From the NCBI GenBank assembly GCA_020073375.1, contig JAIQFG010000009.1, positions 1-64,000 of the forward strand: DNA of 64,000 nucleotides, written 5' to 3'. Origin of the DNA: Terriglobia bacterium (lineage in GTDB: Bacteria; Acidobacteriota; Terriglobia; Acidiferrales; UBA7541). A program made the translations under genes and the position numbers. Of this stretch, positions 38,108 to 58,398 are shown one piece after another. Every line of letters starts with the position of its first letter. The first letter of the stretch is position 1. Below the pieces are notes generated by a model. That model had not been told where the DNA came from. It searched no databases and saw only the letters and a program-made list of their open reading frames with translations.

Positions 38108-38563
38108 CTACTTGGACCCCATCATCGCGTCGATCGAAATCCCGTTCTCCCCGATATGCGCCAGCAGATAATAATAAAGGAAGGCATAAATCAGCTGCAG
38201 CCCCGACACCAGCCAGTCCTGCGCCAGATTCGTCCCGATCACCAGGCACAGAACCACAATCCCCCCGCCAATCAGCGCGAACCGCGTCAACAGCCCCACC
38301 AGCAGCAACAGCCCCAGAATCGTCTCCACCCACGGCTGCACCGTGGCAAACGCCGGCAACATCCCCAGCGGAATCCCGTGCGCGTGCTCAAAATAGTGGT
38401 TCAAGTAAGCCAGAAACGCATCGTGCCCCATCAGAATCCGGCTCACCCCATGCAGCATGATGTTCGCGCCAAACGACACGCGCAGGATCGCGTACGCCAC
38501 ACTCGTGTCGGACGAAACCCCGCCCGCAGCCCGCGCACTTCCCGCACTGGTCGATTCGCTCAT
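38108..38563 (-). CDS. DoxX family membrane protein
   Basis: The 151-residue protein has four membrane helices (about residues 25-45, 72-92, 97-113, 120-140) in the DoxX pattern: AILRVSFGANIMLHGVSRI, an amphipathic segment, and WVETILGLLLLVGLLTRFAL. DoxX-like proteins work in thiosulfate:quinone oxidoreductase or in thiol-redox membrane complexes. No partner gene is next to it. ATG 38563 or 38566 can serve as start after a GAGG site. Confidence 0.85.
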   Translation of the reverse strand: MSESTSAGSARAAGGVSSDTSVAYAILRVSFGANIMLHGVSRILMGHDAFLAYLNHYFEHAHGIPLGMLPAFATVQPWVETILGLLLLVGLLTRFALIGGGIVVLCLVIGTNLAQDWLVSGLQLIYAFLYYYLLAHIGENGISIDAMMGSK

Positions 38564-38791
38564 CATCCATCCTCGGCAAGTTTCAGATTTGGCCCGCCAC
38601 GCCGCCCGCTTCGCACCCAACCCGATTTCCCGGGCTTGTTGGCTGGGAGTCTATCGCTTCCTTGCGCGAGGTACAACTGCGCTTTCTTCAAATTAAGTTT
38701 TTCACGATCGCAGTTCCGCGCCTCATGCCAAATTCGGTTGGGCCAGGAATTTTCCACGAGGGCTGCGACAATTCGGCGCGTCGAATCCGCC

Positions 38792-39853
38792 CTACTGGCT
38801 CACCCTCTCCGCAATCGCCTTCCCCACAATTTCCGTACTCGCCTTCCCGCCCACATCCGGCGTGCGATATTCCGGCGCGGCCAGCACATCCTCGATGGCG
38901 CGCTCGATCGCGTCCGCGGCCTTTTCTTCGCCGAAGTGGCGGAGCATCATCGCGCCGGACCAGATTTGCCCGATGGGATTGGCGATGCCTTTCCCGGCGA
39001 TGTCCGGAGCGGAGCCATGCACGGGCTCGAACATCGAGGGATATTTCCGGGGCGGATTCAAATTCGCCGACGGAGCGATCCCGATCGATCCCACCACGGC
39101 GGGGCCCAGGTCGGAAAGAATGTCGCCGAACAGGTTCGATCCCACCACCACGTCAAACGATTCGGGCCGCCGCACAAAATGCGCCGTCAGGATGTCGATG
39201 TGATACTGGTCGGTGCGCACGTCCGGAAATTGCGCCGCCATGGCATGAAAGCGCTCGTCCCAATACGGCATGGTGTGGATGATGCCGTTCGATTTCGTCG
39301 CGGACGTGACGTGCGATTTGCGCTTTCGCGCCAGCTCGAACGCGAATCGCAAGATGCGGTCCACGCCGCGCCGCGTGAAAATCGTCTGCTGCATGGCCAT
39401 TTCCTCATCGGTGCCGTCGAAAATCCGCCCGCCGACGTTCGAGTACTCGCCCTCTACGTTTTCGCGCACCACGCAGAAGTCGATTCCTCCGGGCTTCGCG
39501 TTCTTCAGCGGGGAATCGACGCCCTTCAACATGCGCACCGGCCGCAGGTTCGCGTACTGCTCAAAGCTGCGGCGGATCGGGATCAGCAGCCCCCAGAGCG
39601 AAATGTGATCCGGCACACCCGGATATCCTACCGCCCCCAGAAAAACGGCGTCGAACGGGCGCAGTTGCGCCAGGCCATCGTCCGGCATCATTTTTCCCGT
39701 CTTCAGGTAGGTCTCGCAGCTCCAGCCGAAATGCTGCTGCGACAATTGAAAACCAAAATGCCGCCCCGCCGCTTCCAGCACGCGCAATCCTTCGGGCACC
39801 ACTTCTTTTCCGATCCCGTCTCCGGGTATCACCGCGATTTTGTATGTATTCAT
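38792..39853 (-). CDS. Tartrate/isopropylmalate-type dehydrogenase (TtuC-like)
   Basis: The 353-residue protein is a beta-decarboxylating NAD-dependent dehydrogenase. It has GDGIGKEV, the substrate arginine region RRSFEQYANLRPVR, FCVVRENVEGEYSNVGGR, metal-binding DILSDLGPAVVG and the NAD-site EPVHGSAPDIAGKG. The segment HFGWSCETYLKTGKMMP and the DHISLWGLL loop fit tartrate dehydrogenase/decarboxylase better than LeuB. It lies 30 bp after an exported class II aldolase gene on the same strand, so the two may be co-transcribed. Confidence 0.9.
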   Translation of the reverse strand: MNTYKIAVIPGDGIGKEVVPEGLRVLEAAGRHFGFQLSQQHFGWSCETYLKTGKMMPDDGLAQLRPFDAVFLGAVGYPGVPDHISLWGLLIPIRRSFEQYANLRPVRMLKGVDSPLKNAKPGGIDFCVVRENVEGEYSNVGGRIFDGTDEEMAMQQTIFTRRGVDRILRFAFELARKRKSHVTSATKSNGIIHTMPYWDERFHAMAAQFPDVRTDQYHIDILTAHFVRRPESFDVVVGSNLFGDILSDLGPAVVGSIGIAPSANLNPPRKYPSMFEPVHGSAPDIAGKGIANPIGQIWSGAMMLRHFGEEKAADAIERAIEDVLAAPEYRTPDVGGKASTEIVGKAIAERVSQ

Positions 39854-39883
39854 GAAATGATTGCCTCCGCTTCCCTTGGTTTA

Positions 39884-40681
39884 TTATTCGACTTTTCCCA
39901 CCCGCGCCTTCCACAATTCCCACGGACGCGAAACGACGGCGTCAATGGACACGCCCGCCTTGGCCGATTCCTCCGGCGACAAAAATATCACCGGCCCGAG
40001 CTGCGCCGCCTGCGCCTGCAGCCGCGCGTTCACCTGCGTATAGATCGCGCGAAAAACCACTTGCGGCACCGCATTGCCCACGGCGACGTATCCATGCCCG
40101 CGCATCAGGACCACGGCGCTATTTCCCAGCGATTTTGCCAGCGCGTCGCCAAGCTTGTTGTCGCGGACCAGCATGTCGGTCATCCCCGCGGCGTCCCGAA
40201 TATCAAAAATGGGCGCGCCCGCGCCCAGAAACGCGCTCATGTGATAGATCGGACGAAGAGCCGTTCCCGTCACCGTGAAGGGAATCACTTCCGGCGAATG
40301 GCTGTGCACGATGGCCATCACGTCGGGCCGCGCGCGGTAAATCGCGGCGTGAATGTACCGTTCCACGTAGGAAGTGCGCCCGCGCGCATCGATCGGCTCG
40401 CCCACGCTGTTGTATTCCAAGATATCGCCGCGTGTCACGATCCCCGGCGCCATGCTGCGCGCCATCAGAAATTTGCCGGGATCCTTGGGGTCGCGCGCGC
40501 TCACGTGGCCGAATCCGTCCAGCACATCCTGATCCGCCAGAATGCGGTTGGCGTAGACCAGGTCTTCGACCAGCTTCGCATCGGGGGCCGCCGCAGAATT
40601 CTGCGCCCGCCCGGCCCACGCGAATACCGCAAGCGCGCCGACGCACAGCGCGATCAGGACGCCAATTCTTATTCCTCGCAT
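39884..40681 (-). CDS. Exported class II aldolase/adducin-family protein
   Basis: From ATG 40681 (CCGGAGAG site) the protein has 265 residues. An N-terminal signal peptide (VLIALCVGALAVFAWAGRAQ) is unusual, as class II aldolases are normally cytosolic. The zinc site is visible: HSH in IVHSHSPEV and a third histidine in RGHGYVAVG. An N-terminal ANRILADQDVLDGFGHVSAR segment is typical of the family. It is upstream of a tartrate-type dehydrogenase gene and divergent from an exported amidohydrolase, 240 bp apart. The substrate is unknown. Confidence 0.88.
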   Translation of the reverse strand: MRGIRIGVLIALCVGALAVFAWAGRAQNSAAAPDAKLVEDLVYANRILADQDVLDGFGHVSARDPKDPGKFLMARSMAPGIVTRGDILEYNSVGEPIDARGRTSYVERYIHAAIYRARPDVMAIVHSHSPEVIPFTVTGTALRPIYHMSAFLGAGAPIFDIRDAAGMTDMLVRDNKLGDALAKSLGNSAVVLMRGHGYVAVGNAVPQVVFRAIYTQVNARLQAQAAQLGPVIFLSPEESAKAGVSIDAVVSRPWELWKARVGKVE

Positions 40682-40921
40682 ACATGCTCTCCGGAAAAAT
40701 TCTGATTTCGCATTTCGCGATGAACGCGTGGCCGGAAATCGCAGCCCGTGAATTGTATCAAGAGCGGGCCGCATGGGCAGGGAGAATCTGGCGCAGGGAC
40801 AGGGCCGGGTCAAGCGGCAAGAAGCACGTGGACCGCCGCAAAATCCGGGTTACAATCTTGCGAAAAGTTTTTGCAAATGTTTTCGCAATTATCCGTGAGA
40901 CGAATTCCAGGAGAGCTGCCA

Positions 40922-44562: not shown

Positions 44563-44650
44563 TCAAGTCCCTTCGCAATCCGCCTAACCGCCGGCGCTCC
44601 AATATTGATTGTCAACTGCATCCCGGAAACCACAGGAACCACGGAGCTTC

Positions 44651-45637
44651 ATGGCCATTCTCGTAACCGGCGGCGCCGGATACATCGGCAGCGTTACCGT
44701 CGAGCGGTTGCGCACCAAAGGCGAGCAAGTCGTCGTCCTGGACGATCTCGAGCGCGGCCATCGCGCCGCGCTCGAGGCCGATGTTCCCCTGTATCGCGGG
44801 AAAATCGGCGACCGCGAACTGGTCGCGCGCATCTGCCGCGAACACAACCTCGAATCCTGCATCCACTTCGCCGCATTGATCGAAGTCGGCGAATCGGTCA
44901 AGGATCCCGCGAAATATTTTGAAAATAATGTCGGCCACGGCATCGCATTTATCACTGAACTCGTCCAGCAAGGCGTGCGCCGCATCGTGTTTTCTTCCAC
45001 AGCCGCCGTCTACGGCGATCCCGAGGAAATCCCGATCACCGAACCAAGCCGCAAATGGCCGAAAAATCCCTACGGCTGGTCCAAGCTTTTCATGGAACGC
45101 CTGCTCGATTCCTACGGCACTGCGTATGGAATGAAATTCGCCGCCCTGCGCTACTTCAATGCTGCCGGGGCCACCGAAAAATGCGGCGAGGACCACCGCC
45201 CCGAGTCCCACCTGATTCCCAATGTGCTTTCCGCGGCTCTGGGCCTGCAGCAGGCCATTCGCGCTTTCGGCAACAATTATCCCACCCCGGACGGCACGCC
45301 CATTCGCGATTACATTCACGTCGCCGACCTGGCCGACGCGCACATCCTCGCCCTCGATCATCTTCGCCGCGGCGGCGTCTCCGACTTCTTGAACTTGGGA
45401 ACGGGCCGCGGCTATTCCGTCCTCGAAGTCATCCAGTGCGCGCGCCAAATCACCGGAAGGGAAATTCCCGTCGTGCTGGAACCGCCGCGCCCCGGCGATC
45501 CTGCCCGATTGATCGCCGACCCGTCCAGGGCCAAAGCCATGCTGGGCTGGGAGCCGCGCCAGTCCGATTTGCCCTCCATCATTCGCTCCGCGTGGCAGTG
45601 GCGGCTTCGACATCAGCAGGGTTATGCGGCGGAATAG
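44651..45637 (+). CDS. galE: UDP-glucose 4-epimerase
   Basis: The 328-residue short-chain (extended SDR) enzyme interconverts UDP-glucose and UDP-galactose, supplying sugars for the polysaccharide genes downstream. It has the NAD motif GGAGYIGS (residues 7-14), the catalytic YGWSK (Y141, K145) and the RYFNAAGA loop. ATG 44651 is used. It is followed 87 bp later by UDP-glucose dehydrogenase on the same strand. GalE relatives may act on UDP-GlcNAc; this cannot be told apart here. Confidence 0.94.
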
Positions 45638-47361: not shown

Positions 47362-47597
47362 CTCTAAGTCTGCGTGCTTTGATGCCCGGCCTTGATTTGT
47401 GACCGGCGGAACTTTTTTGCGCTGAATCCGTGCCTGGCAGGCAATTCGTTCTAAGCATTTGTAAATACAAGACTTATTAATAGATGTGCGGAGCGGTGGC
47501 ACACCAGGGACGAAGCCTTGCTTTGCGCTGTTCTCGTGATTCCCTGAATGTCATGGAGGGAAACCTCCCTGGCGAGCTGTCCGCGGCAGGAGCCCAA

Positions 47598-48785
47598 ATG
47601 GCAAATAGCTATTCGAGAATCGGATCTCCGGAAAACCAGCAATCGGCCAAGCAGACGGGTCCGAAGTTTTCCGAACCACGCGATTTTGGCATTCTACCCG
47701 CTCCCGAGGAAACCGCGCTCACTGAAAGCGTTTTTCATTCCTTGCTCACGCATGAGCGCCGGCGCGCCGAACGCTCCCGCAAACCTTTCGTCTTGATGCT
47801 GCTGGACGCCAATCTGGAAGACGGCACCCCCGCGGAAATTTTGAAAAATGCAGTCGAGGTGGTACTGGCTTCCAAACGGGAGACCGACCTGGTCGGTTGG
47901 TACAAGCAGGAACTTATCCTGGGCGTGATTTTCACGGAAGTCAGCGTCGAGGGAGATGTTCCGGTCACCGAAACTTTACGGACCAAAATCGAGGCTGCGC
48001 TGATCAAGCATCTGGGCCGCGAGCCGGCCTCCAAGATCGCCATTTCCCTGCATTTGTTTCCGGAAAATTGGGACAAGGATCACACCGGATGGGTTGCGGA
48101 TTCCAAGCTGTACCCCGACCTGAAGCGCAAAAGTTCGCGCAAGCGCCTGCCCCTGGTGATCAAGCGCGTGATGGACATTGCGGGCAGCGGAGCCCTGCTG
48201 CTGGTGCTTTCGCCCTTGCTCGCGGCCATTGCCGCCATCATCAAGCTCACGTCAACCGGCCCTGTCATTTATGAACAGGATCGCCTGGGCCAGTTCGGCG
48301 CGCGCTTCAAGTGCCTGAAATTTCGAACGATGTACTCCAATAACGACCCGAAAATTCACCAGGAATACGTCCAGCAATTCATTGCCGGCAAGGACGGGCT
48401 GGACAAGTCTGCCTCCAGCGAAAAGCCTGTTTACAAGCTGACTAACGACCCGCGAATTACCTCCATCGGGCGTTTGCTGCGCAAGGCCAGCCTGGACGAA
48501 CTCCCGCAATTCTGGAACGTGCTGCGCGGCGAAATGTCGCTGGTCGGCCCGCGCCCTCCGGTTCCCTACGAATTCGAAGTCTATGACGTCTGGCACCGCC
48601 GCCGCGTTCTTGAAGTGAAGCCCGGAGTCACCGGCCTTTGGCAGGTGAGCGGCCGAAACCGCACGCTGTTCGATGAAATGGTCCGTCTGGATCTGCGTTA
48701 CTGCCAGAGCTGGTCGCTATGGCTGGATGTAAAGATTTTGTTTGCCACCCCCCGCGCCGTTTTCCACGGGGATGGCGCCTGCTGA
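47598..48785 (+). CDS. Polyprenyl-phosphate sugar-1-phosphate transferase with degenerate GGDEF domain
   Basis: I start at ATG 47598 (395 residues) after CAGGAG. The first ~150 residues read like a GGDEF fold: an [18 protein letters not shown] strand, and [19 protein letters not shown] where the active GGDEF loop is replaced by KQELI. It therefore should not make c-di-GMP. One membrane helix (about residues 195-220) and the bacterial sugar-transferase domain follow, with [36 protein letters not shown] and [11 protein letters not shown]. This single-helix layout resembles the PglC-type monotopic enzymes that start glycan assembly on undecaprenyl phosphate. Confidence 0.9.
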
Positions 48786-48870: not shown

Positions 48871-48947
48871 GTAGGACAGGCTTCAAGCCTGCCGCTCTTG
48901 ATTTTCCTTGCCGACCAACAAACCCGACAGGCTGAAGCCTGTCCTAC
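48871..48947. repeat. GTAG...CTAC doublet, family B, containing the gmhA stop
   Basis: GTAGGACAGGCTTCAAGCCTG and the inverted arm GGCTGAAGCCTGTCCTAC are about 35 bp apart. The complement of 48944-48946 is the gmhA TAG stop. Confidence 0.88.
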
Positions 48948-49543
48948 TTGGAACCCACTGAATTCGCTGCCGCGGAAGCAATCGCGTGCTCGACCGCATC
49001 GCAGAGCGCGTGGCCGATCAGGATATGGCACTCCTGAATGCGCGGCGTGTCGTCGGACGGCACGGCGATGAGCGCATCGACCAAGCCGCTCAGGCGGCCG
49101 CCCGAGGAACCGGTCAGCCCGATCGTGAACATTCCCAGCGCGCGCGCGCGTGTCACACCTTCAATAATATTTTGCGAATTTCCCGAAGTGCTGATAGCCA
49201 CGGCCACGTCGCCCGGCGCGGCCAGCGCCTCGATTTGCCGCGAAAAAACGTGCGCGTAGCCGTAATCGTTGGCGATGGCCGTGACTCCCGCAGTGTTGTC
49301 GGCCAGCGCCACCGCCGGCAGCGGCCGCCGCTCGCGCAGGTAGCGTCCCAGGAATTCTCCGGCCAGGTGCTGCGCGTCGGTGGCGCTGCCGCCGTTGCCG
49401 AAGAACAGAGCTTTGTGGCCAGAGCGGTAAGCCGATACCAGCGCGTTCGCCGCGGCCGTCATCGCCGGCAAGCAATGTTCCAGCAGCCTGGTGTGCACTT
49501 GCACGCTGCGCTCGATATTCGTGCGAAGAATGTCGCCGGTCAT
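48944..49543 (-). CDS. gmhA: Sedoheptulose-7-phosphate isomerase (GmhA-like SIS protein)
   Basis: The 199-residue SIS-domain protein converts sedoheptulose 7-phosphate to D-glycero-manno-heptose 7-phosphate, the first step of heptose for LPS core or S-layer glycans. It has GHKALFFGNGGSATDAQHLAGEF (phosphate-binding loop and zinc histidine), AISTSGNSQNIIEG and CHILIGHALCDAVE with the metal ligands. It is opposite in orientation to the flanking polysaccharide genes. No gmhB/hldE gene is present nearby. Confidence 0.93.
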   Translation of the reverse strand: MTGDILRTNIERSVQVHTRLLEHCLPAMTAAANALVSAYRSGHKALFFGNGGSATDAQHLAGEFLGRYLRERRPLPAVALADNTAGVTAIANDYGYAHVFSRQIEALAAPGDVAVAISTSGNSQNIIEGVTRARALGMFTIGLTGSSGGRLSGLVDALIAVPSDDTPRIQECHILIGHALCDAVEHAIASAAANSVGSK

Positions 49544-49753: not shown

Positions 49754-50494
49754 ATGGAAACGGGAAAAATCAGCAAGCTGGCCGTGGTGGAAACCGACCG
49801 CATCGGATCTAATGTGACCATCGGCGAGTTCAGCGTGATCCGCAAGGGCGCCGTGCTCGGAGACGACGTCGTCATCCACCCTCACGTGGTCATCGAATCC
49901 GGCGTCACCATCGGCAAGGGCACCGAAATATTCCCCAGCACCTATATCGGCAAGGAACCCAAGGGCGCCGGGGCCACGGCGCGCAATCTGGACTTCATCC
50001 GCGAGGTTACCATCGGCGAGCATTGCTGCGTCGGCCCCAATGCCGTGATCTATTGCGACGTGCAGATCGGCGATTCCACGCTGATCGGCGACGCCGCCTC
50101 CATCCGCGAAAAAAGCCGCGTCGGATCGAAATCCATCATCGGCCGTCACGTCACGCTGAGCTACGTTTCCATCATCGGCTCCTATACCAAGATCCTCGAC
50201 CACTGCACCATGGGCGGAAACGTCACCGTGGGAGACCACGTCTTCATCGGCACCGATACGCACACCGCCAACGACAATTCGTTCGGCGCCGAGGGCTGGA
50301 GTGACGACATGATCGGCCCGACCATTAAGGATGGCGCGAATATTGGCGTCGGGGCCCTCCTGCTCCCCGGCGTGGTCATCGAAAAGGGCGTGCTGATCGG
50401 CGCGGGTTCGGTTGTTTACCGCAGCGTAAAAGAGGGCTTCGTGACCATGGCCGCCGCCGCGCGCGAGATGCCGCGCCCTCCGAAGAAGGAGTAA
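49754..50494 (+). CDS. LpxA-like left-handed beta-helix acyltransferase
   Basis: The 246-residue protein starts at ATG 49754 after GAGGAGGAAG. It consists almost wholly of hexapeptide repeats (VTIGEF, VVIHPH, VTIGKG, CVGPNAVI, VQIGDS) over residues 18-225. A loop HTANDNSFGAEGW interrupts the helix, as in sugar O- or N-acyltransferases, with a candidate catalytic histidine. Such proteins form trimers and acylate sugars or nucleotide sugars using acyl-CoA or acyl-ACP. The ACP operon begins 248 bp downstream, so an acyl-ACP donor is possible. Confidence 0.88.
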   Translation: METGKISKLAVVETDRIGSNVTIGEFSVIRKGAVLGDDVVIHPHVVIESGVTIGKGTEIFPSTYIGKEPKGAGATARNLDFIREVTIGEHCCVGPNAVIYCDVQIGDSTLIGDAASIREKSRVGSKSIIGRHVTLSYVSIIGSYTKILDHCTMGGNVTVGDHVFIGTDTHTANDNSFGAEGWSDDMIGPTIKDGANIGVGALLLPGVVIEKGVLIGAGSVVYRSVKEGFVTMAAAAREMPRPPKKE

Positions 50495-50742: not shown

Positions 50743-51003
50743 TTGCCGGCGAACACCATGAGTAATCTGGACACATTGAAAAGCACGTTTGTGGACGTCA
50801 TCGGCGTCGATCCGGCAATCGATTTCAACAGTCTGGTGTACGGCAGCACGCCGGGCTGGGACAGCGTTGCGCACATGGCGCTGGTGGCCGCGATCGAAGG
50901 CTCGTTTGACATCATGCTGCCCACCGATGACGTCATTGACATGAGCAGCTTTGCGAAGGCGAAGGAAATCGTCGCCAAGCACGGTGTCGCCCTTGATGCT
51001 TGA
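50743..51003 (+). CDS. Acyl carrier protein
   Basis: The 86-residue protein is read from TTG 50743, which lies eight bases after GGAGA; ATG 50758 is the alternative. The phosphopantetheine serine is S41 in TPGWDSVAHM, with the usual acidic helix II following. It ends eight bases inside the next gene. It differs from a housekeeping AcpP (no DSLDTVE-type helix) and so is probably a dedicated carrier. It is the first gene of the ACP/SDR/ligase/LuxE/LuxC operon. Confidence 0.9.
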   Translation: MPANTMSNLDTLKSTFVDVIGVDPAIDFNSLVYGSTPGWDSVAHMALVAAIEGSFDIMLPTDDVIDMSSFAKAKEIVAKHGVALDA

Positions 51004-51739
51004 TGGCAGGGTGGCGTTTGTAACCGGATCGACCCGCGGAATCGGCTGGGCGACGGCGCGCACATTCGCTTCGCAGGGCGCGGCGGTGATCGTCAACGGT
51101 GTCACTTCCCAGGAGCGCGTGGACAAGCGAGTCGAGGAAATCTGCACGGAGTTCGGCGTGCCGTGCATCGGATTTCTTTGCGACGTTTCCAATCCCGCCT
51201 GCGTCCGTTCCTGCTACGCGGAAATTTTCAAGAAATTCAAGCGCCTCGACGTGCTGGTGAACAACGCCGGCATCGTGCAGGACGCGCTGCTGGGCATGAT
51301 TTCCGAGGCGTCCATCCGCCGGCAGATCGAAGTCAACACCATGGGCGCGATCTTTCATTTGCAGGAGGCCGCGCGCTTGATGCTGCGTAACCGTTCCGGC
51401 TCGATCATCAACGTCAGCTCGATCGTGGGGCGCAACGGGAACGCGGGAGAGATTGTGTACAGCGCCTCCAAGGCTGCCCTGATCGGATTGACGTATTCCG
51501 CGGCCAAGGAACTGGCGCCGAAAAATATTCGCGTGAACGCCGTCGCTCCCGGATTCATTGACACTGATCTGACCAAGGTTTTGCCGAAGGATGCGCACGC
51601 CGAGTGGAGCAAGCGCGTCGGATTGGGACGCATGGGCACCGCGCAGGAAGTGGCCAACACGATTTTGTTTCTGGCCTCGGACCAATCCAGCCACATTTCC
51701 GGCCAAGTCGTGGGAGTAGATGGTTGCCTGGTAATCTGA
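50996..51739 (+). CDS. Short-chain dehydrogenase/reductase (FabG-like)
   Basis: The 247-residue protein starts at ATG 50996, overlapping the ACP stop. It has the NADP(H) motif GSTRGIGWA (residues 11-19), NNAG at about 87-90, and the catalytic triad Ser in SSIVGR plus YSASK (Y and K). The family reduces 3-oxoacyl-ACP or other carbonyls. The overlap with the ACP gene suggests an ACP-bound substrate, but the substrate is not shown. Confidence 0.93.
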   Translation: MLDGRVAFVTGSTRGIGWATARTFASQGAAVIVNGVTSQERVDKRVEEICTEFGVPCIGFLCDVSNPACVRSCYAEIFKKFKRLDVLVNNAGIVQDALLGMISEASIRRQIEVNTMGAIFHLQEAARLMLRNRSGSIINVSSIVGRNGNAGEIVYSASKAALIGLTYSAAKELAPKNIRVNAVAPGFIDTDLTKVLPKDAHAEWSKRVGLGRMGTAQEVANTILFLASDQSSHISGQVVGVDGCLVI

Positions 51740-51748
51740 GCCAATTCC

Positions 51749-53185
51749 ATGCTATTCGACACCGAACGCCAGCCCGCCCAGAGCCCTGCCATCCATGATG
51801 CCGCCCTGGGGAAGTGGTTCACCTACGGGGAACTTCGCGAACTTGTAGAGCGCCTTGCCCAGTCGCTGGCATATCCGCAAAAGGCGCTAGCTTTCTGCTT
51901 CACGCGGAACGATCTTGCCTCGGTGGCCTGGTATCTGGCGGCTGTGCAGGCGGGCCACGCCGTCGCCCTGCTCGATGAAGGCCTTACCAGGGAATTCAAG
52001 GCTGCGCTGATTTCGTCCTACGCTCCGGATTTTATTCTTGCTTCGGTCGATACCACCGACTACGCAACGATCAGCGAAGAGCGGCCCGGCTACGACTCCG
52101 CCTCCACTCCTGAACCTCGGAATTATTTCTGGCGCCGCAAGTCCGTCCCGGTGCAAACCGTTCATGCGGACTTGTCCGTGCTGCTTTCGACTTCCGGAAG
52201 CACTGGCAGCCCGAAATTCGTGCGCCTCTCCGGGAAAAATGTGTTGAGCAATGCGCTGTCCATCAGCCAGGTCCTGGAAATCGACGCGCCCGACCGCGCC
52301 ATCAGCAGCCTTCCGTTTCATTACTCCTACGGCCTTTCGGTGCTGAACACGCACCTGCTGACGGGCGCAAGCGAAGTGATGACAAACGAAGGCCTCACAT
52401 CGCCCGCATTCTGGAACGCGTTTCGCGAAACGGAGTGCACATCCTTCGCCGGCGTGCCGTATTCGTATCAGATTATGAAGCGGCTGGATGTGGATAAACT
52501 GAATCTTCCCAGCCTGCGCGTGATGACCCAGGCCGGAGGCCGTTTGCACAAGGACCTGGTCGCGCACTTTCACCAGGTGATGGCCGCGCGCAGCGGACGT
52601 TTCTACGTAATGTACGGGCAGACCGAAGCCACCGCGCGCATCGCGATCTTGCCCTCGCAGTTTCTTCCCGAAAAACTCGGTTCGGCCGGGCTTGCGATTC
52701 CGGGCGGATCGCTTTCCGTGCGCGTCGAAGGCCGCTTGACGACAGAAGCCAATCAAGTCGGCGAGTTGGTGTACACCGGGCCAAACGTAATGATGGGATA
52801 CGCGAATAGCCGCGAAGATCTGAGCCTGGGAGACGCCCTGGGCGGAACGCTCGAGACGGGCGACTCGGCGCACTTTGACGAGGAAGGGTTTATTTTCTTC
52901 GAGGGCCGCATGAAGCGCGACGCCAAGGTGTTCGGCTTGCGCGTGAACCTGGACGAAGTCGAAAACCTGCTGCGCGTGCACGGGCCCACGGCCGTCGTCG
53001 CGGGCGGCGAAAATCTCCAGATCTATTGCGAGTACGGCGAGGCGGAGGATTTCGCGCGCTACCGCCAGGACCTGGCGGCAAAGCTGCGCGTGCACCACAG
53101 CGCGTTCAAATTTCATCGCATCGAGCAGATACCGACCACGCCCAGCGGCAAAATCAACTATCCGGCGCTGACCGCCAAGACCTGA
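51749..53185 (+). CDS. AMP-forming acyl-CoA/acyl-ACP ligase
   Basis: The 478-residue ANL-superfamily enzyme adenylates a carboxylic acid and transfers it to a thiol. The ATP-binding P-loop is LLSTSGSTGSPKFV (about residues 145-158), A5 is FYVMYGQTEAT, A7 ETGDSAHFDEEG, and A10 PTTPSGKIN with the catalytic lysine. It is shorter than typical acyl-CoA synthetases and starts nine bases after the SDR. Given the operon, loading of the preceding ACP is the most economical guess. Confidence 0.92.
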   Translation: MLFDTERQPAQSPAIHDAALGKWFTYGELRELVERLAQSLAYPQKALAFCFTRNDLASVAWYLAAVQAGHAVALLDEGLTREFKAALISSYAPDFILASVDTTDYATISEERPGYDSASTPEPRNYFWRRKSVPVQTVHADLSVLLSTSGSTGSPKFVRLSGKNVLSNALSISQVLEIDAPDRAISSLPFHYSYGLSVLNTHLLTGASEVMTNEGLTSPAFWNAFRETECTSFAGVPYSYQIMKRLDVDKLNLPSLRVMTQAGGRLHKDLVAHFHQVMAARSGRFYVMYGQTEATARIAILPSQFLPEKLGSAGLAIPGGSLSVRVEGRLTTEANQVGELVYTGPNVMMGYANSREDLSLGDALGGTLETGDSAHFDEEGFIFFEGRMKRDAKVFGLRVNLDEVENLLRVHGPTAVVAGGENLQIYCEYGEAEDFARYRQDLAAKLRVHHSAFKFHRIEQIPTTPSGKINYPALTAKT

Positions 53186-53192
53186 AACCGCC

Positions 53193-54272
53193 ATGAAATT
53201 CGACGACCTGCTTAAACTGCCGCAATACTCTCTGCCCTACGCGGAGAAGGAACGGATTTTGCTCGATGGGCTCAACGAACTCGATGAGCACCATCGCCGC
53301 AATTGCCCGGAATACAATCGCCTGGTCTCTGTCCTCTGGCCGGACTACCGCAAGGCCGAAACGCTTGCCGATCTGCCGTATCTGGCCGTGGGATTGTTCA
53401 AGAGCCACCGCTTGTGCAGCATTCCCAAGGAGAACATTTTCAAGACGCTGACCTCCAGCGGCACCACCGGGCAAGCCGTCAGCCAGATTTTTCTGGACGT
53501 GGAAACCGCGCAGCGCCAGAGCGCCGCGCTCAGCCGCATCATGACGCATACCCTGGGGCCGAACCGCCTGCCGATGATCCTGGTGGAAAGCAGCGCGCTG
53601 CTGAAGGACCGCGCGCGATTCAGCGCGCGGGCCGCGGGCGTGCTTGGGATGATGACGTTCGGGCGCGACCATTTCTACGCGCTCGATGAAAAAATGGAAC
53701 TCGACGAAAAGGGCCTGCAAGCGTTCCTCGAAAAAGTGAACGGCAAACCGTTTTTCATGTTCGGCTTCACCTTCATGATCTGGCAATACCTGTACCAGCG
53801 CATCGCCGACCGCAGCGTGGACCTGTCGCAGGGAATCATGGTGCATGGCGGAGGCTGGAAAAAATTGCAGGAATTGGCCGTCAGCAACGACGAATTCAAA
53901 CGCAAGCTGCGCGAAAAAACGGGGCTCTCGCGAATCTACAATTTTTACGGCCTGGTCGAGCAAGTGGGCAGCATCTACGTGGAGGGCGAAAACGGCTACC
54001 TGTTCGCGCCGAATTACGCGGACGTGATTGTGCGCGACCCCCTCACCTGGGAGCCCGCGCCGATGGGCACGCCCGGAGTCCTGCAGGTGCTCAGCCTGCT
54101 GCCGCTCAGCTATCCGGGACACTCCGTGCTGACCGAGGACCTGGGAATCATTCACGGCATCGACGATGCCGCCGGCGGGCGCTTCGGAAAATATTTCTCG
54201 GTGCTGGGACGAATCCCGAAAGCAGAATTGCGCGGCTGCAGCGACGTTCATGCCAGCCAGGTGAGCGGATGA
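53193..54272 (+). CDS. LuxE-family acyl-protein synthetase
   Basis: The 359-residue protein has the LuxE domain, a shorter relative of ANL enzymes. In lux systems LuxE activates a fatty acid with ATP and carries it on a cysteine before reduction by LuxC. Visible landmarks are FKTLTSSGTTGQAVSQIF (nucleotide loop), HFYALDEKMELD, and MVHGGGWKKLQE. The Tyr-rich FYGLVEQVGSIY region is like A5. It is 7 bp after the ligase gene and overlaps the LuxC-like gene by ATGA. No luciferase (LuxAB) gene is present. Confidence 0.9.
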   Translation: MKFDDLLKLPQYSLPYAEKERILLDGLNELDEHHRRNCPEYNRLVSVLWPDYRKAETLADLPYLAVGLFKSHRLCSIPKENIFKTLTSSGTTGQAVSQIFLDVETAQRQSAALSRIMTHTLGPNRLPMILVESSALLKDRARFSARAAGVLGMMTFGRDHFYALDEKMELDEKGLQAFLEKVNGKPFFMFGFTFMIWQYLYQRIADRSVDLSQGIMVHGGGWKKLQELAVSNDEFKRKLREKTGLSRIYNFYGLVEQVGSIYVEGENGYLFAPNYADVIVRDPLTWEPAPMGTPGVLQVLSLLPLSYPGHSVLTEDLGIIHGIDDAAGGRFGKYFSVLGRIPKAELRGCSDVHASQVSG

Positions 54273-55498
54273 AAGTCCAGCAACTGGTGCCGCGCGCCGA
54301 GGAAGTCGAACTCGACGATATCCTCGCCGGGCTGCGCGATATTTCCGGGGGCACGCTTTCCCCCCTCGCCCCGGAAATTCTGGAATTCTGCGCGAATTTT
54401 TCGCGCGCCCTGTTCAAGGACGCCGAGGCAAAAAAGTTCCCCGAATTGCAGGCACTGGCGTTCTGGATGCGGAAATCGGAACTCGAGCGCCTGCGCCAGG
54501 AATTCGACCGCCTGAAAACCAAAAACACGCTTCCGGTGCCGCGCGGCCTGGTGTTTCACGTCCCTCCCGCAAACGTGGACACGATTTTCATGTATTCGTG
54601 GATCATGTCCGTGCTGGTGGGCAACCGCAACATCCTGCGTATTTCGCCGCGCGCCGCGCAGCAGACCACGATCATCTGCAAGGTATTCAACGAGTGCCTG
54701 GAGGCGGCCGGCGACGTCATGCGCCGCAACACGGTGATGATCCGCTACGGCCACGAGCAGGAAATCACGGCCGCGATTTCCGCCGTGGCCGATGTGCGCG
54801 TGATCTGGGGCGGGGACGCGTCGGTGAACAATATCCGCGCCGTGCGCATCCCGCCGCATTGCAAGGAACTTGCGTTTCCCGACCGCTACTCGCTGTCGGT
54901 GGCGCGCACCGCGCGGTATCTAGCGCTGGACGAAGCCAAACGCAAGGAAGTGGCCGCGCAATTTTATAACGATACCTACTGGTTTGACCAAATGGCGTGC
55001 TCTTCTCCCCGGCTGCTGATCTGGTGCGGGGAGCGGGAAGAAAGTTCCAAGGCGAGCGCAATGTTCCTGCAGGATTTGCACGAGGAAGTGCAGCGCCGGG
55101 GATACACGCTGGACGCTTCCGGCAGCATGAATAAGTTCACGTTCCTGTCGCGCGCGATCCTGGACCAGCCCGTGGCTTCGACCCGGCGGGTCGACAATCA
55201 GCTGACCGTCGCGCAGCTTGAAAACATTCGGCACCTGGACCGCGACCATTGCGGAGGAGGATTCCTATTCCAGTATTACGCCGAGGGGATCGATGTCCTC
55301 GGACAGGTCGTGGCGCGCAAGGACCAGACCCTCACCTATTTCGGTTTCGAGCCCGCGGAAATGGCCGCGCTCGCGAAACTGCTCAACGGCCGCGGAATCG
55401 ACCGCATCGTGCCCATGGGCAAGGCGCTGACCTTCAATCGCTACTGGGACGGCTACGATCTGATGGCCGAGATGATCCGACACGTGTACGTGGAATAG
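54269..55498 (+). CDS. LuxC-family acyl-CoA/acyl-protein reductase
   Basis: The 409-residue protein belongs to the LuxC/aldehyde dehydrogenase-like family that reduces an activated acyl group to an aldehyde with NADPH. The catalytic cysteine is C244 in WFDQMACSSPR. Earlier landmarks are VFHVPPANVDTIF and the nucleotide-site GNRNILRIS; the C-terminal block is LTYFGFEPAEMAAL. It closes a five-gene operon with ATGA coupling to LuxE. The LuxE-LuxC pair implies an aldehyde product, possibly for a polysaccharide or lipid. Confidence 0.9.
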   Translation: MKVQQLVPRAEEVELDDILAGLRDISGGTLSPLAPEILEFCANFSRALFKDAEAKKFPELQALAFWMRKSELERLRQEFDRLKTKNTLPVPRGLVFHVPPANVDTIFMYSWIMSVLVGNRNILRISPRAAQQTTIICKVFNECLEAAGDVMRRNTVMIRYGHEQEITAAISAVADVRVIWGGDASVNNIRAVRIPPHCKELAFPDRYSLSVARTARYLALDEAKRKEVAAQFYNDTYWFDQMACSSPRLLIWCGEREESSKASAMFLQDLHEEVQRRGYTLDASGSMNKFTFLSRAILDQPVASTRRVDNQLTVAQLENIRHLDRDHCGGGFLFQYYAEGIDVLGQVVARKDQTLTYFGFEPAEMAALAKLLNGRGIDRIVPMGKALTFNRYWDGYDLMAEMIRHVYVE

Positions 55499-55895: not shown

Positions 55896-56834
55896 CTACT
55901 TCTTCGCCTTTTTCGCCGTCTTGGCGCCGTAGTGCCCGCTGGAATAGTAAGAGCCGTACTCCGAACTTTCGTCCGCCGTATTGAGGACCACGCCCAGGAT
56001 TTGAGAATCCTTGAATTCCCTGCAGGCCTTGCGAGCCATATCCGACGGCGTGGAGCTTGCGCGAACCACCAGCAGAACTCCGTCGCACATTCCCCCGAGC
56101 ACGGTCGCGTCGGCAACAGGAAGAACCGGCGAGGAGTCGATGACGATCCAGTCGAACTCCGGCTTCACGCGGTCGATGAATGCCTTCATGCGGGCGCTGG
56201 ATATCAGTTCGGACGGGTGGGTAACGTGCGTTCCCGCCGGCGTGAAATAGAGGCCTTCCTCGTGGCCCTTTTGAATGACTTCAAACTCCGCGGCGCCGCC
56301 CTGCAGGTAATCGGCAAGGCCCGGGTTGGAGGGAGCGCCCAGCAGCGTGTGCACGCGCGGGGCGCGCAAATCGGCGTCAATGAGCAGAACGCGGCAACCC
56401 TGCTGGCGAACCAGCGCATGGGCCAGATTGGTGGCGACCATCGTTTTGCCTTCCGCGGGGACGGCGCTGGAAATCAGCACGGTCTGCAAGGGCTGGTTCT
56501 CGCGGATGCGCGCCAGCCGCGAACGCAACGTGCGGAATTGCTCGGTGCCGGGAAAGAAGGGATCCGAATTGGCGAACACCAGGAACGCAGGATCGGGCTT
56601 CCAATTGGGCTGGGCGCACCGGGCCAGAAAGCTTCCGGCAGGGGAAGGTTCAGGCATGGTTTCGACCGCGGCAACGGTGGAGGCGGCAGGCTGCATAAAA
56701 TTCGGAACTGCCGGCTCCGGCTGCTTCTCCAGCTTGGGCGCGGCAACCTCGGCCAGGTCTTCCGGTTTCTGGCCGTTGTGGGCCGCCGATTTTTCCTGCT
56801 CCGCTCGTTTCAGTGCTTCGTGGATCCTGCTCAT
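55896..56834 (-). CDS. BY-kinase (CpsD/CapB-like tyrosine autokinase)
   Basis: The 312-residue protein is the cytosolic kinase partner of the Wzz/GumC protein upstream. The N-terminal MSRIHEALKRAEQ segment is the one found in Wzz-associated kinases of the XrtA-type loci. It has Walker A SAVPAEGKT (residues 123-131), Walker A' LLIDADLR (150-157), Walker B IVIDSSP and a C-terminal Tyr cluster (YGSYYSSGHYG) that can be autophosphorylated. It lies 46 bp after the wzz gene and is followed by a terminator. Such pairs control chain length and export of exopolysaccharides. Confidence 0.94.
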   Translation of the reverse strand: MSRIHEALKRAEQEKSAAHNGQKPEDLAEVAAPKLEKQPEPAVPNFMQPAASTVAAVETMPEPSPAGSFLARCAQPNWKPDPAFLVFANSDPFFPGTEQFRTLRSRLARIRENQPLQTVLISSAVPAEGKTMVATNLAHALVRQQGCRVLLIDADLRAPRVHTLLGAPSNPGLADYLQGGAAEFEVIQKGHEEGLYFTPAGTHVTHPSELISSARMKAFIDRVKPEFDWIVIDSSPVLPVADATVLGGMCDGVLLVVRASSTPSDMARKACREFKDSQILGVVLNTADESSEYGSYYSSGHYGAKTAKKAKK

Positions 56835-56880: not shown

Positions 56881-58398
56881 TCAAGCCCTGGCTGCCGCCC
56901 GCGGATTTTGAGGACCCACGAGCGAAGGCCGCGTGCCGGTCTTGCCCTGATTTTTTGTGATCACCGGGATCATCGCCAGAACCGGCAGGTGCAAAGCCGC
57001 TTCCACGTCGCGTTCCGAGCGCATCGAGGTGTCCTGCATTTCCAGCAGGAGCGTCAAGCCCAGTCCAAGGGCCAAACCCGCGGCAAAGCCGCCCCCCGCG
57101 AAGAGCGGAACCTTGGGGAAGGATGGCTGGTTGGGCAGATTGGCCGGGTCAAGCACCTGGAATTGTTCGCCCTGCTGGCTTTGTTCCAGGTTCATGGCCA
57201 TGGCCGATTGGTCGCGCTTTTTCTGCAAATCGTTGTAGAAATCCAGCGCTGTCTGATGATCGCGGGTGATCAGCTTGTATTCCTGCTCAACTGCGGGGCT
57301 GGCTTGCACGCGTGCCTGGTACAGTTTGATTTGCGCCTGAGTATCCGTCTGCTGCTGCGTGCGCTCCTTGATCACCTGGTCGTATTGATGGATCTGGGCG
57401 CGGAGCTGCTGTATCTGGGCCGGCTCGGAAAGAGGTTTGGTCGGCCTATCCACTCCCGCGTTTCTTTCCTGTTGATTTTCTTCGGCGATCTTCTTGCGCA
57501 TCACCGCGATGTCGTTCTTGGCCTTGATCACGTCCGGATGGTCGTTGGTATATTTCGATTGCAGTGTCGTCAGATTCGCTTCGAGCGCGGCCAGTTGCTG
57601 TTCGAGCGTTTCCGGGTTCGTCCCGCTCTGGGTGGCCTGCCAGGCCGCGATTTGTTGCGCCAGCTGCGATTCCGCGAAGCTCTTATCCTGCTGCGCGCGC
57701 GTCAGCGCCTGCGTGGAAGCTTCCAACTGCGGCGTCAGACCGGCCAACAGGCCGATGTTCGTTTGCGCATCGTCTGGAAGAATGCCCATGTTCCTGCGTT
57801 GAAACGCTGCCAGCCGCGCGTCCTGCTCGTCGAGCTTGGCCTTGGCTTCCTCCAGCTGCTTCCCAAGAAATTCGTTGGTCTGAATCGTCTGGCCCTTGCG
57901 GCTCTGAACGTTTTCCTCCAGGAACATGTTGGTGATCCGCGCGCAAATCGCCTGGGCCATGCGCGGATCGTTGAACACCACGCTGATGTAAAAGCCGGGC
58001 AGGTTCTGAGCCCGGGTCTCGGCCATGGGCTGCACCGGGGTAATGGTGATCGCGGTTCGCAGCCGCTCGACCAGCGCGTCCATCGGCACCGAATCGATGT
58101 CCTTGGCGTACAGGCCGAACTGCTGGATTACCGGTTCCAGCCGGGACCGGCTCAGGATCTGCTGCTGCATCGCGGCCAATCTCTGATTGGTGTTGTCCGC
58201 AACGACAGTCGGGACCAACGATTGGGACACGATGGGCGGCTGGACCAGCACCAGTGTCTGGGACGTGAACCGCTTCGGCAGAACGTGCGACGCGAAATAT
58301 CCCCCAGCGCCACCGATCACGGCAATCAGGGCAATCAGATACCATCGCCGCTTAAGGATGGAGATTACGTCGCTCGGTTTTATGTCCTGATGTAGCAT
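56881..58398 (-). CDS. Wzz/GumC-type polysaccharide co-polymerase
   Basis: The 505-residue protein has two membrane helices (about residues 18-36 and 448-468) around a large periplasmic coiled-coil domain (about residues 120-430). Wzz and GNVR signatures occur (the TSQTLVLVQPP strand; the C-terminal VLDPANLPNQPSFPKVPLF segment before TM2). It determines polysaccharide chain length together with the BY-kinase. A candidate sigma-54 promoter lies about 205 nt upstream. The downstream BY-kinase gene is co-directional. Confidence 0.94.
   Translation of the reverse strand: MLHQDIKPSDVISILKRRWYLIALIAVIGGAGGYFASHVLPKRFTSQTLVLVQPPIVSQSLVPTVVADNTNQRLAAMQQQILSRSRLEPVIQQFGLYAKDIDSVPMDALVERLRTAITITPVQPMAETRAQNLPGFYISVVFNDPRMAQAICARITNMFLEENVQSRKGQTIQTNEFLGKQLEEAKAKLDEQDARLAAFQRRNMGILPDDAQTNIGLLAGLTPQLEASTQALTRAQQDKSFAESQLAQQIAAWQATQSGTNPETLEQQLAALEANLTTLQSKYTNDHPDVIKAKNDIAVMRKKIAEENQQERNAGVDRPTKPLSEPAQIQQLRAQIHQYDQVIKERTQQQTDTQAQIKLYQARVQASPAVEQEYKLITRDHQTALDFYNDLQKKRDQSAMAMNLEQSQQGEQFQVLDPANLPNQPSFPKVPLFAGGGFAAGLALGLGLTLLLEMQDTSMRSERDVEAALHLPVLAMIPVITKNQGKTGTRPSLVGPQNPRAAARA

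Follow-up and report, generated by a model that had tools for sequence, protein, structure and literature searches.

A conserved ACP–SDR–ligase–LuxE–LuxC gene set in an exopolysaccharide locus of the Acidobacteriota: a known module with a possible role in amino-sugar N-acylation

Introduction

Why homologues of LuxE and LuxC, two enzymes of the luxCDABE fatty acid reductase, should be kept within an exopolysaccharide (EPS) locus is the question raised by a stretch of 64,000 nucleotides (positions 1 to 64,000 of contig JAIQFG010000009.1, hereafter the window) from a 5.3-Mb assembly of a soil-dwelling member of the Terriglobia (Acidobacteriota). Five of its genes encode, in this order, an acyl carrier protein (ACP), a short-chain dehydrogenase/reductase (SDR), an AMP-forming acid-ACP ligase, a LuxE-family acyl-protein synthetase and a LuxC-family acyl reductase. 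This module is real, conserved and biologically coherent, but its gene set is already known. In 98 Aeromonas strains, flagella glycosylation islands of Group II carry ACP, 3-oxoacyl-ACP reductase, AMP-synthetase, luxE and luxC genes in identical order (PMC7874193), and similar gene sets occur in 71-80 Enterobacteriaceae strains (PMC4875605). Since the set has already been published in flagellin islands, what is new here is its location, an EPS locus, and its lineage, the Acidobacteriota. A first-pass annotation of the window had described the product as not known for this organism group, which holds in so far as the papers demonstrate no product, but overlooks that the gene set itself was already in print. 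With well over a hundred Aeromonas and enterobacterial strains published and four phyla represented here, the set is widespread, and its interest lies in this cross-phylum conservation, in a tie to amino-sugar N-acylation and in a testable product. This tie, together with a concrete four-carbon (C4) acyl candidate, opens a long-standing product question to experiment and would, if true, extend LuxC/LuxE chemistry beyond light production.

A conserved five-gene operon

The operon at 50743-55498 was confirmed as first described, with an 8-bp overlap, gaps of 9 and 7 bp and an ATGA overlap (spacings of -8, +9, +7 and -4 bp), and all five open reading frames (ORFs) are intact. The same order with small spacing is kept in about ten genomes from four phyla: the window, G005, G010, G262, G263, G447 and G530 (all Acidobacteriota), a Coxiellaceae metagenome-assembled genome (MAG), Deinococcus NW-56 and Nonomuraea, where in G010 only SDR to LuxC are visible, the remainder being cut by a contig end, and in Nonomuraea a gap of 158 bp precedes LuxC. 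Mean pairwise identity by gene is 36-50%, and even the gammaproteobacterial Coxiellaceae module shares 30-52% identity per gene with that of the window. Such recurrence of both order and overlaps makes the arrangement more than chance, and the five-gene order is a conserved unit. The earlier claim of a co-inherited operon is borne out in this respect, as dispersal of the genes was looked for and they were found to stay together. Distance matrices agree for LuxE and LuxC (Mantel p about 0.003) and weakly for ligase and LuxE (0.035), while ACP and SDR are uncorrelated with LuxE, and SDR with LuxC, so that these pairs carry no co-inheritance signal. Looser versions also occur, with LuxC displaced in Ponticoccus, the set split in Rhizobium, the SDR absent from its place in G378 and only ligase, LuxE and LuxC visible in G331, divided over two contigs. 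A LuxC of 92% identity is encoded in a MAG titled Terriglobia bacterium, and G005 is a genome of the same genus. No module was found in phage records, where one weak LuxE match covered 45% of the query, nor in an IMG/VR search with the ligase, and the E. coli genomes gave no DNA match to the Coxiellaceae luxE.

The catalytic residues of all five proteins are intact and conserved. The ACP, without a match in Pfam or NCBIfam and with a weak ACP match in the PDB (0.0036), has a WDS-xx-H motif with S36 that is invariant in 17 homologues. S142, Y155 and K159 of the SDR are conserved in the alignment of homologues; its score of 257.4 bits against TIGR01830 lies below the FabG equivalog threshold of 297.75, and by family it would behave as an SDR-type reductase. 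In the ligase, the P-loop TSGSTGSPK, K468 and R297 are all invariant, and its 154.7 bits against the XrtA-associated acyl-CoA ligase TIGR03098 fall short of the cut-off of 592. LuxE C349 is invariant in 22 sequences and lies in a GCS motif that matches the C-terminal GCS of LuxE in PDB 7xc6 (4.7e-19), while LuxC C244 is invariant in 19 sequences and the LuxC AlphaFold model (predicted local distance difference test score 78.5) has LuxC of 7xc6 as its top PDB match (3.9e-17). The NCBIfam long-chain LuxE and LuxC equivalogs are far under their cut-offs (62.7 of 550 and 36 of 750). A promoter and terminator scan of the operon gave nothing exceeding shuffled sequences.

The operon contains no luxAB luciferase genes, its neighbours being EPS genes, and fatty-aldehyde bioluminescence was rejected because of this. 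No luxD lies beside the operon; a genome search for it gave no match, but neither did the positive control. The sequence thus agrees with the earlier prediction of LuxE/LuxC-type chemistry without an adjoining luciferase or LuxD.

Several related arrangements were noted in passing. A divergent second module type in the Acidobacteriota (L022, L023, L024, L027 and L071, from G059, G181, G116, G159 and G580) consists of an optional ACP, ligase, LuxE and LuxC, followed by a 299-aa S-adenosylmethionine methyltransferase and usually FabZ, and its LuxC shares only about 22% identity with that of the window. LuxE/LuxC homologues occur on ten Rhizobium plasmids; on that of Rhizobium anhuiense (L038:5221-17404) the module genes are interleaved with a split transketolase, a NeuD-type transferase, DegT, a GMC oxidoreductase and FabZ, and adjoin a TonB siderophore receptor. 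On a Salmonella enterica conjugative plasmid (CP053580; L039:7980-12857), a LuxE homologue accompanies a large AMP-binding protein and a PaaK-like ligase near an HlyD and peptidase-ABC export pair.

The exopolysaccharide setting and a sixth gene

The surface-glycan setting suggested by the first-pass annotation stands, as EPS genes flank the operon (Table 1): a sugar transferase that initiates EPS units on one side and a tyrosine kinase with a chain-length protein on the other. No flagellin glycosylation island with pse or vio genes was found around it. The EPS locus extends past the window with Wzx- and Wzy-type proteins and, at contig 65.9-67.4 kb, with an FdtA ketoisomerase (188 bits) and a DegT aminotransferase, which no N-acyltransferase was seen to adjoin; RmlB is encoded elsewhere in the same genome. 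In the sister species G001, sugar transferase, chain-length protein and kinase stand side by side without the operon, which marks the block as an optional cassette.

Table 1. Features of the operon and its surroundings in the window.
Feature	Coordinates	Strand	Evidence
Polyprenyl-phosphate hexose-1-phosphate transferase, starts EPS units	47484-48785	+	PF02397 1e-65; TIGR03025 286 bits
GmhA-like sugar isomerase	48944-49543	-	PF13580 8.5e-25; NF010546 198 bits
Hexapeptide (left-handed beta-helix) acyltransferase, QdtC/NeuD type	49754-50494	+	PF00132 5.6e-33
ACP, stand-alone	50743 (TTG, AGGAG upstream; alternative ATG 50758)-51003	+	WDS-xx-H motif with Ser36
SDR, FabG-like, probably NADPH-dependent reductase	50996-51739	+	PF13561 5.6e-65
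AMP-forming acid-ACP ligase	51749-53185	+	PF00501 4.4e-45
LuxE-family acyl-protein synthetase	53193-54272	+	PF04443 3.6e-51
LuxC-family acyl reductase, catalytic C244	54269-55498	+	PF05893 1.1e-28
EPS tyrosine autokinase	55896-56834	-	TIGR03018 145 bits (below cut-off); TIGR01007 136 bits (above)
XrtA-type polysaccharide chain-length determinant	56881-58398	-	TIGR03007 268.9 bits, cut-off 278.85

Directly relevant to function is the hexapeptide acyltransferase gene upstream of the operon, which had been called LpxA-like. A role in lipid A was rejected because its scores against the LpxA equivalogs (86-88 bits) lie under the cut-offs (226-231) and because QdtC is its best structure (3fs8, 4.7e-18); with NeuD as top NCBIfam match, albeit below cut-off, the protein is closer to amino-sugar N-acetyltransferases. 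The gene is found at 72-100% identity in only three of 61 relatives (G000, G005 and G010), which are the operon carriers; one distant match in G014 (37% identity) is an exception to this co-occurrence. In G010 the gene and the operon are on different contigs, the gene close to the end of its contig and the operon at the beginning of its own, and adjacency there is likely. We propose that it encodes a putative sugar N-acyltransferase and forms the sixth member of the unit.

Neighbours of the same kind are seen at other module loci. An acyltransferase of NeuD/PglB/VioB type adjoins the module in the Coxiellaceae (L008), Deinococcus (L035), Rhizobium (L038) and G331 (L034) loci and one of PglD type in that of G447 (L072), with a weak GNAT match in Ponticoccus (L036), and DegT aminotransferases accompany it in L008, L034, L038 and L072. 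By comparison, such an acyltransferase is present in only one of 16 LuxE-hit loci lacking this module. An acyltransferase, DegT or a sugar transferase, singly or combined, is found in L008, L035, L038, L034 and L072, and glycan neighbours have arisen independently beside the module in Acidobacteriota, Deinococcota and Pseudomonadota.

A few further features of the locus and its surroundings may be recorded here. The real gene at 44.6-45.6 kb is an epimerase (44609-45637, + strand), which corrects an earlier reading, and at 38156-40705 the window holds an 849-aa ORF without a Pfam match. Outside the window, the same EPS locus has a second DegT and hexapeptide pair (contig C140, about 80.7-82.4 kb; L040:18699-20000 and L041:3-581), and a similar pair is present in the sister species G003.

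A proposed pathway for the acyl group

That the operon supplies the acyl group for an amino-sugar N-acylation is, on balance, the somewhat favoured interpretation. The fuller proposal, that the six genes together make a small acyl group with which a nucleotide-linked amino sugar destined for EPS is N-acylated, is put forward tentatively, at a little under an even chance. Its steps are inferred throughout. A small dicarboxylic acid such as malate or succinate would be adenylated at one carboxyl by the ligase and loaded onto the dedicated ACP. LuxE would then adenylate the remaining free carboxyl and hand it via Cys349 to Cys244 of LuxC. An NAD(P)H-dependent reduction by LuxC would yield an aldehyde, which the FabG-like SDR could reduce further to the alcohol, giving a hydroxyacyl-ACP (3,4-dihydroxybutyryl in the case of malate). 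Finally, the QdtC-like enzyme would move the acyl group onto a 3-amino-3,6-dideoxyhexose that FdtA and DegT, the ketoisomerase and aminotransferase of the locus, would produce. LuxE-type enzymes require a free carboxylate, and as the ligase would take up one carboxyl, the distal one would be the natural LuxE/LuxC substrate, an arrangement that employs all five enzymes. The aldehyde-bearing final product envisaged earlier is not supported, a hydroxyacyl group delivered to an amino sugar fitting the neighbours better.

The dicarboxylate chemistry within this pathway is a specific hypothesis that we regard as possible but doubtful, and two indirect observations fit it without proving it. Among PDB entries the ligase is closest to 3wvn/3wv4, which we take to be VinN. 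A fold search with the ligase was only weakly suggestive, as it returned mostly generic AMP-ligases with a large root-mean-square deviation. With a uniform offset of 16, three residues could be matched to Asp230, Ser299 and Arg331 of VinN, the invariant R297 aligning with Arg331 and Ser193 occupying the position of Asp230. In VinN, Arg331 has been proposed to bind the alpha-carboxyl of beta-methylaspartate, and Asp230 is amine-binding (PMC7756342). The other observation concerns Aeromonas piscicola AH-3, a carrier of the module, whose flagellin glycan contains a 376.14-Da pseudaminic derivative and an unidentified 102-Da unit. Swapping one acetyl for C4H6O3 in a pseudaminic residue predicts 376.148, and the glycan total leaves a residual of 102.04, as against 102.032 for C4H6O3, which corresponds to dihydroxybutyryl or O-methylglyceryl. 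The 376-Da residue persists in the AH-3 mutant lacking the glycosyltransferase fgi-1, which would be expected if its source were the acyl operon, untouched in that mutant. A. caviae Sch3 shows an ordinary m/z 317.1 ion.

Several points weigh against the pathway as drawn. We know of no LuxE that takes a carboxylate on a carrier-bound acyl group, and the SDR is nearest to 3-ketoacyl-ACP reductases rather than to aldehyde reductases. R297 is also conserved in divergent type II ligases and so may not mark this substrate, the 102-Da match comes from one organism with near-nominal masses and a formula shared by O-methylglyceryl, and the FdtA/DegT pair lies 10-12 kb away from the operon. Since five of the 12 module loci have no recognised N-acyltransferase nearby, the acyltransferase link is strong but not universal. 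The broadest version of the idea, that in several phyla LuxE and LuxC were co-opted to reduce the distal carboxyl of a carrier-bound acid, converting a malate-type dicarboxylyl-ACP to dihydroxybutyryl for N-acylated surface amino sugars, lies on the unlikely side; if true, it would also explain the 102-Da unit of the Aeromonas glycan.

Alternative explanations

Characterised LuxE and LuxC act on long-chain acids, and this is the principal argument for a lipid route, in which ligase and ACP would handle a fatty acid and LuxE and LuxC would make a fatty aldehyde or alcohol for the lipid part of a glycan, a so-called liposugar, or for an ether or wax lipid. The FabG-like SDR would suit such a route, and fatty acid or liposugar roles have been proposed for this gene set by the authors of the Aeromonas and enterobacterial studies (PMC7874193, PMC4875605). 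We nevertheless consider it unlikely, as most loci with an adjoining acyltransferase have one of a sugar N-acyltransferase type, the nearest ligase structures in sequence and fold (3wvn, oxalate, MenE, MatB) act on small acids, several of them dicarboxylic, the long-chain equivalogs of both Lux proteins score far under cut-off and the published AH-3 glycan masses include no long acyl chain.

An explanation that we judge similarly improbable is that the aldehyde from LuxE and LuxC is joined to another unit, by transketolase-type C2 transfer or by amination, in the assembly of a special sugar or side chain, with ligase and ACP acting on a separate or later acid. The split transketolase and DegT genes interleaved with the Rhizobium module (L038), tktA and tktB inside the Dickeya cluster (PMC7575072) and a class I/II aminotransferase after LuxC in G010 would all be accommodated by it, but most five-gene loci, including the window, have no transketolase-type gene in the module, and the minimal conserved set lacks an enzyme forming C-C bonds. 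It is very unlikely that the cells release the aldehyde as a metabolite or signal and that the operon adjoins EPS genes by coincidence: although some module loci (L028, L026) have no clear adjoining glycan genes and two luciferase-family flavin oxidoreductase genes lie on other contigs of the genome, the glycan neighbours recur across the three phyla named above and in the published islands, and the G001 EPS core without the block is what a glycan-variant cassette would leave.

Comparison with known systems

With the luxCDABE fatty acid reductase (7xc6) the module shares LuxE adenylation and cysteine transfer, the LuxC cysteine reductase, the folds and the catalytic cysteines. It differs in having a dedicated ACP and ligase and neither LuxD nor LuxAB alongside, and the LuxC proteins are distant (phmmer E 0.12; 17% identity in the fold alignment). 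The VinN/VinL loading pair of vicenistatin resembles the ligase and stand-alone ACP, including the arginine at the Arg331 position, whereas the amine-binding Asp230 is replaced by Ser193 and Ser299 by Ala262, and no pyridoxal phosphate-dependent decarboxylase accompanies them. Two features of QdtC/FdtC-type dTDP-3-aminosugar N-acyltransferase systems are present, namely a beta-helix protein most like QdtC and an FdtA/QdtA ketoisomerase with DegT in the same locus. The sfmABCDE genes of Shewanella oneidensis, which include a 3-oxoacyl-ACP reductase and a thiamine pyrophosphate enzyme, were rejected as a relative, as they lack LuxC and LuxE.

The closest counterparts are those in print. The Enterobacteriaceae and Dickeya sets comprise the same enzyme families, and the Dickeya cluster also adjoins maa, which encodes a transferase of hexapeptide type, and the sugar aminotransferase gene vioA, but adds a split transketolase (tktA, tktB) and a second fabG, and its gene order differs from that of the window (PMC7575072). 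The Aeromonas block, compared by annotation and order, matches in all five annotated genes, their order and their strand, and likewise lies in a glycan locus with amino-sugar (pse) genes alongside, among them the adjoining N-acetyltransferase gene pseH. It serves flagellin islands with pseudaminic acid, whereas the operon of the window belongs to an XrtA-type EPS locus with a QdtC-like acyltransferase.

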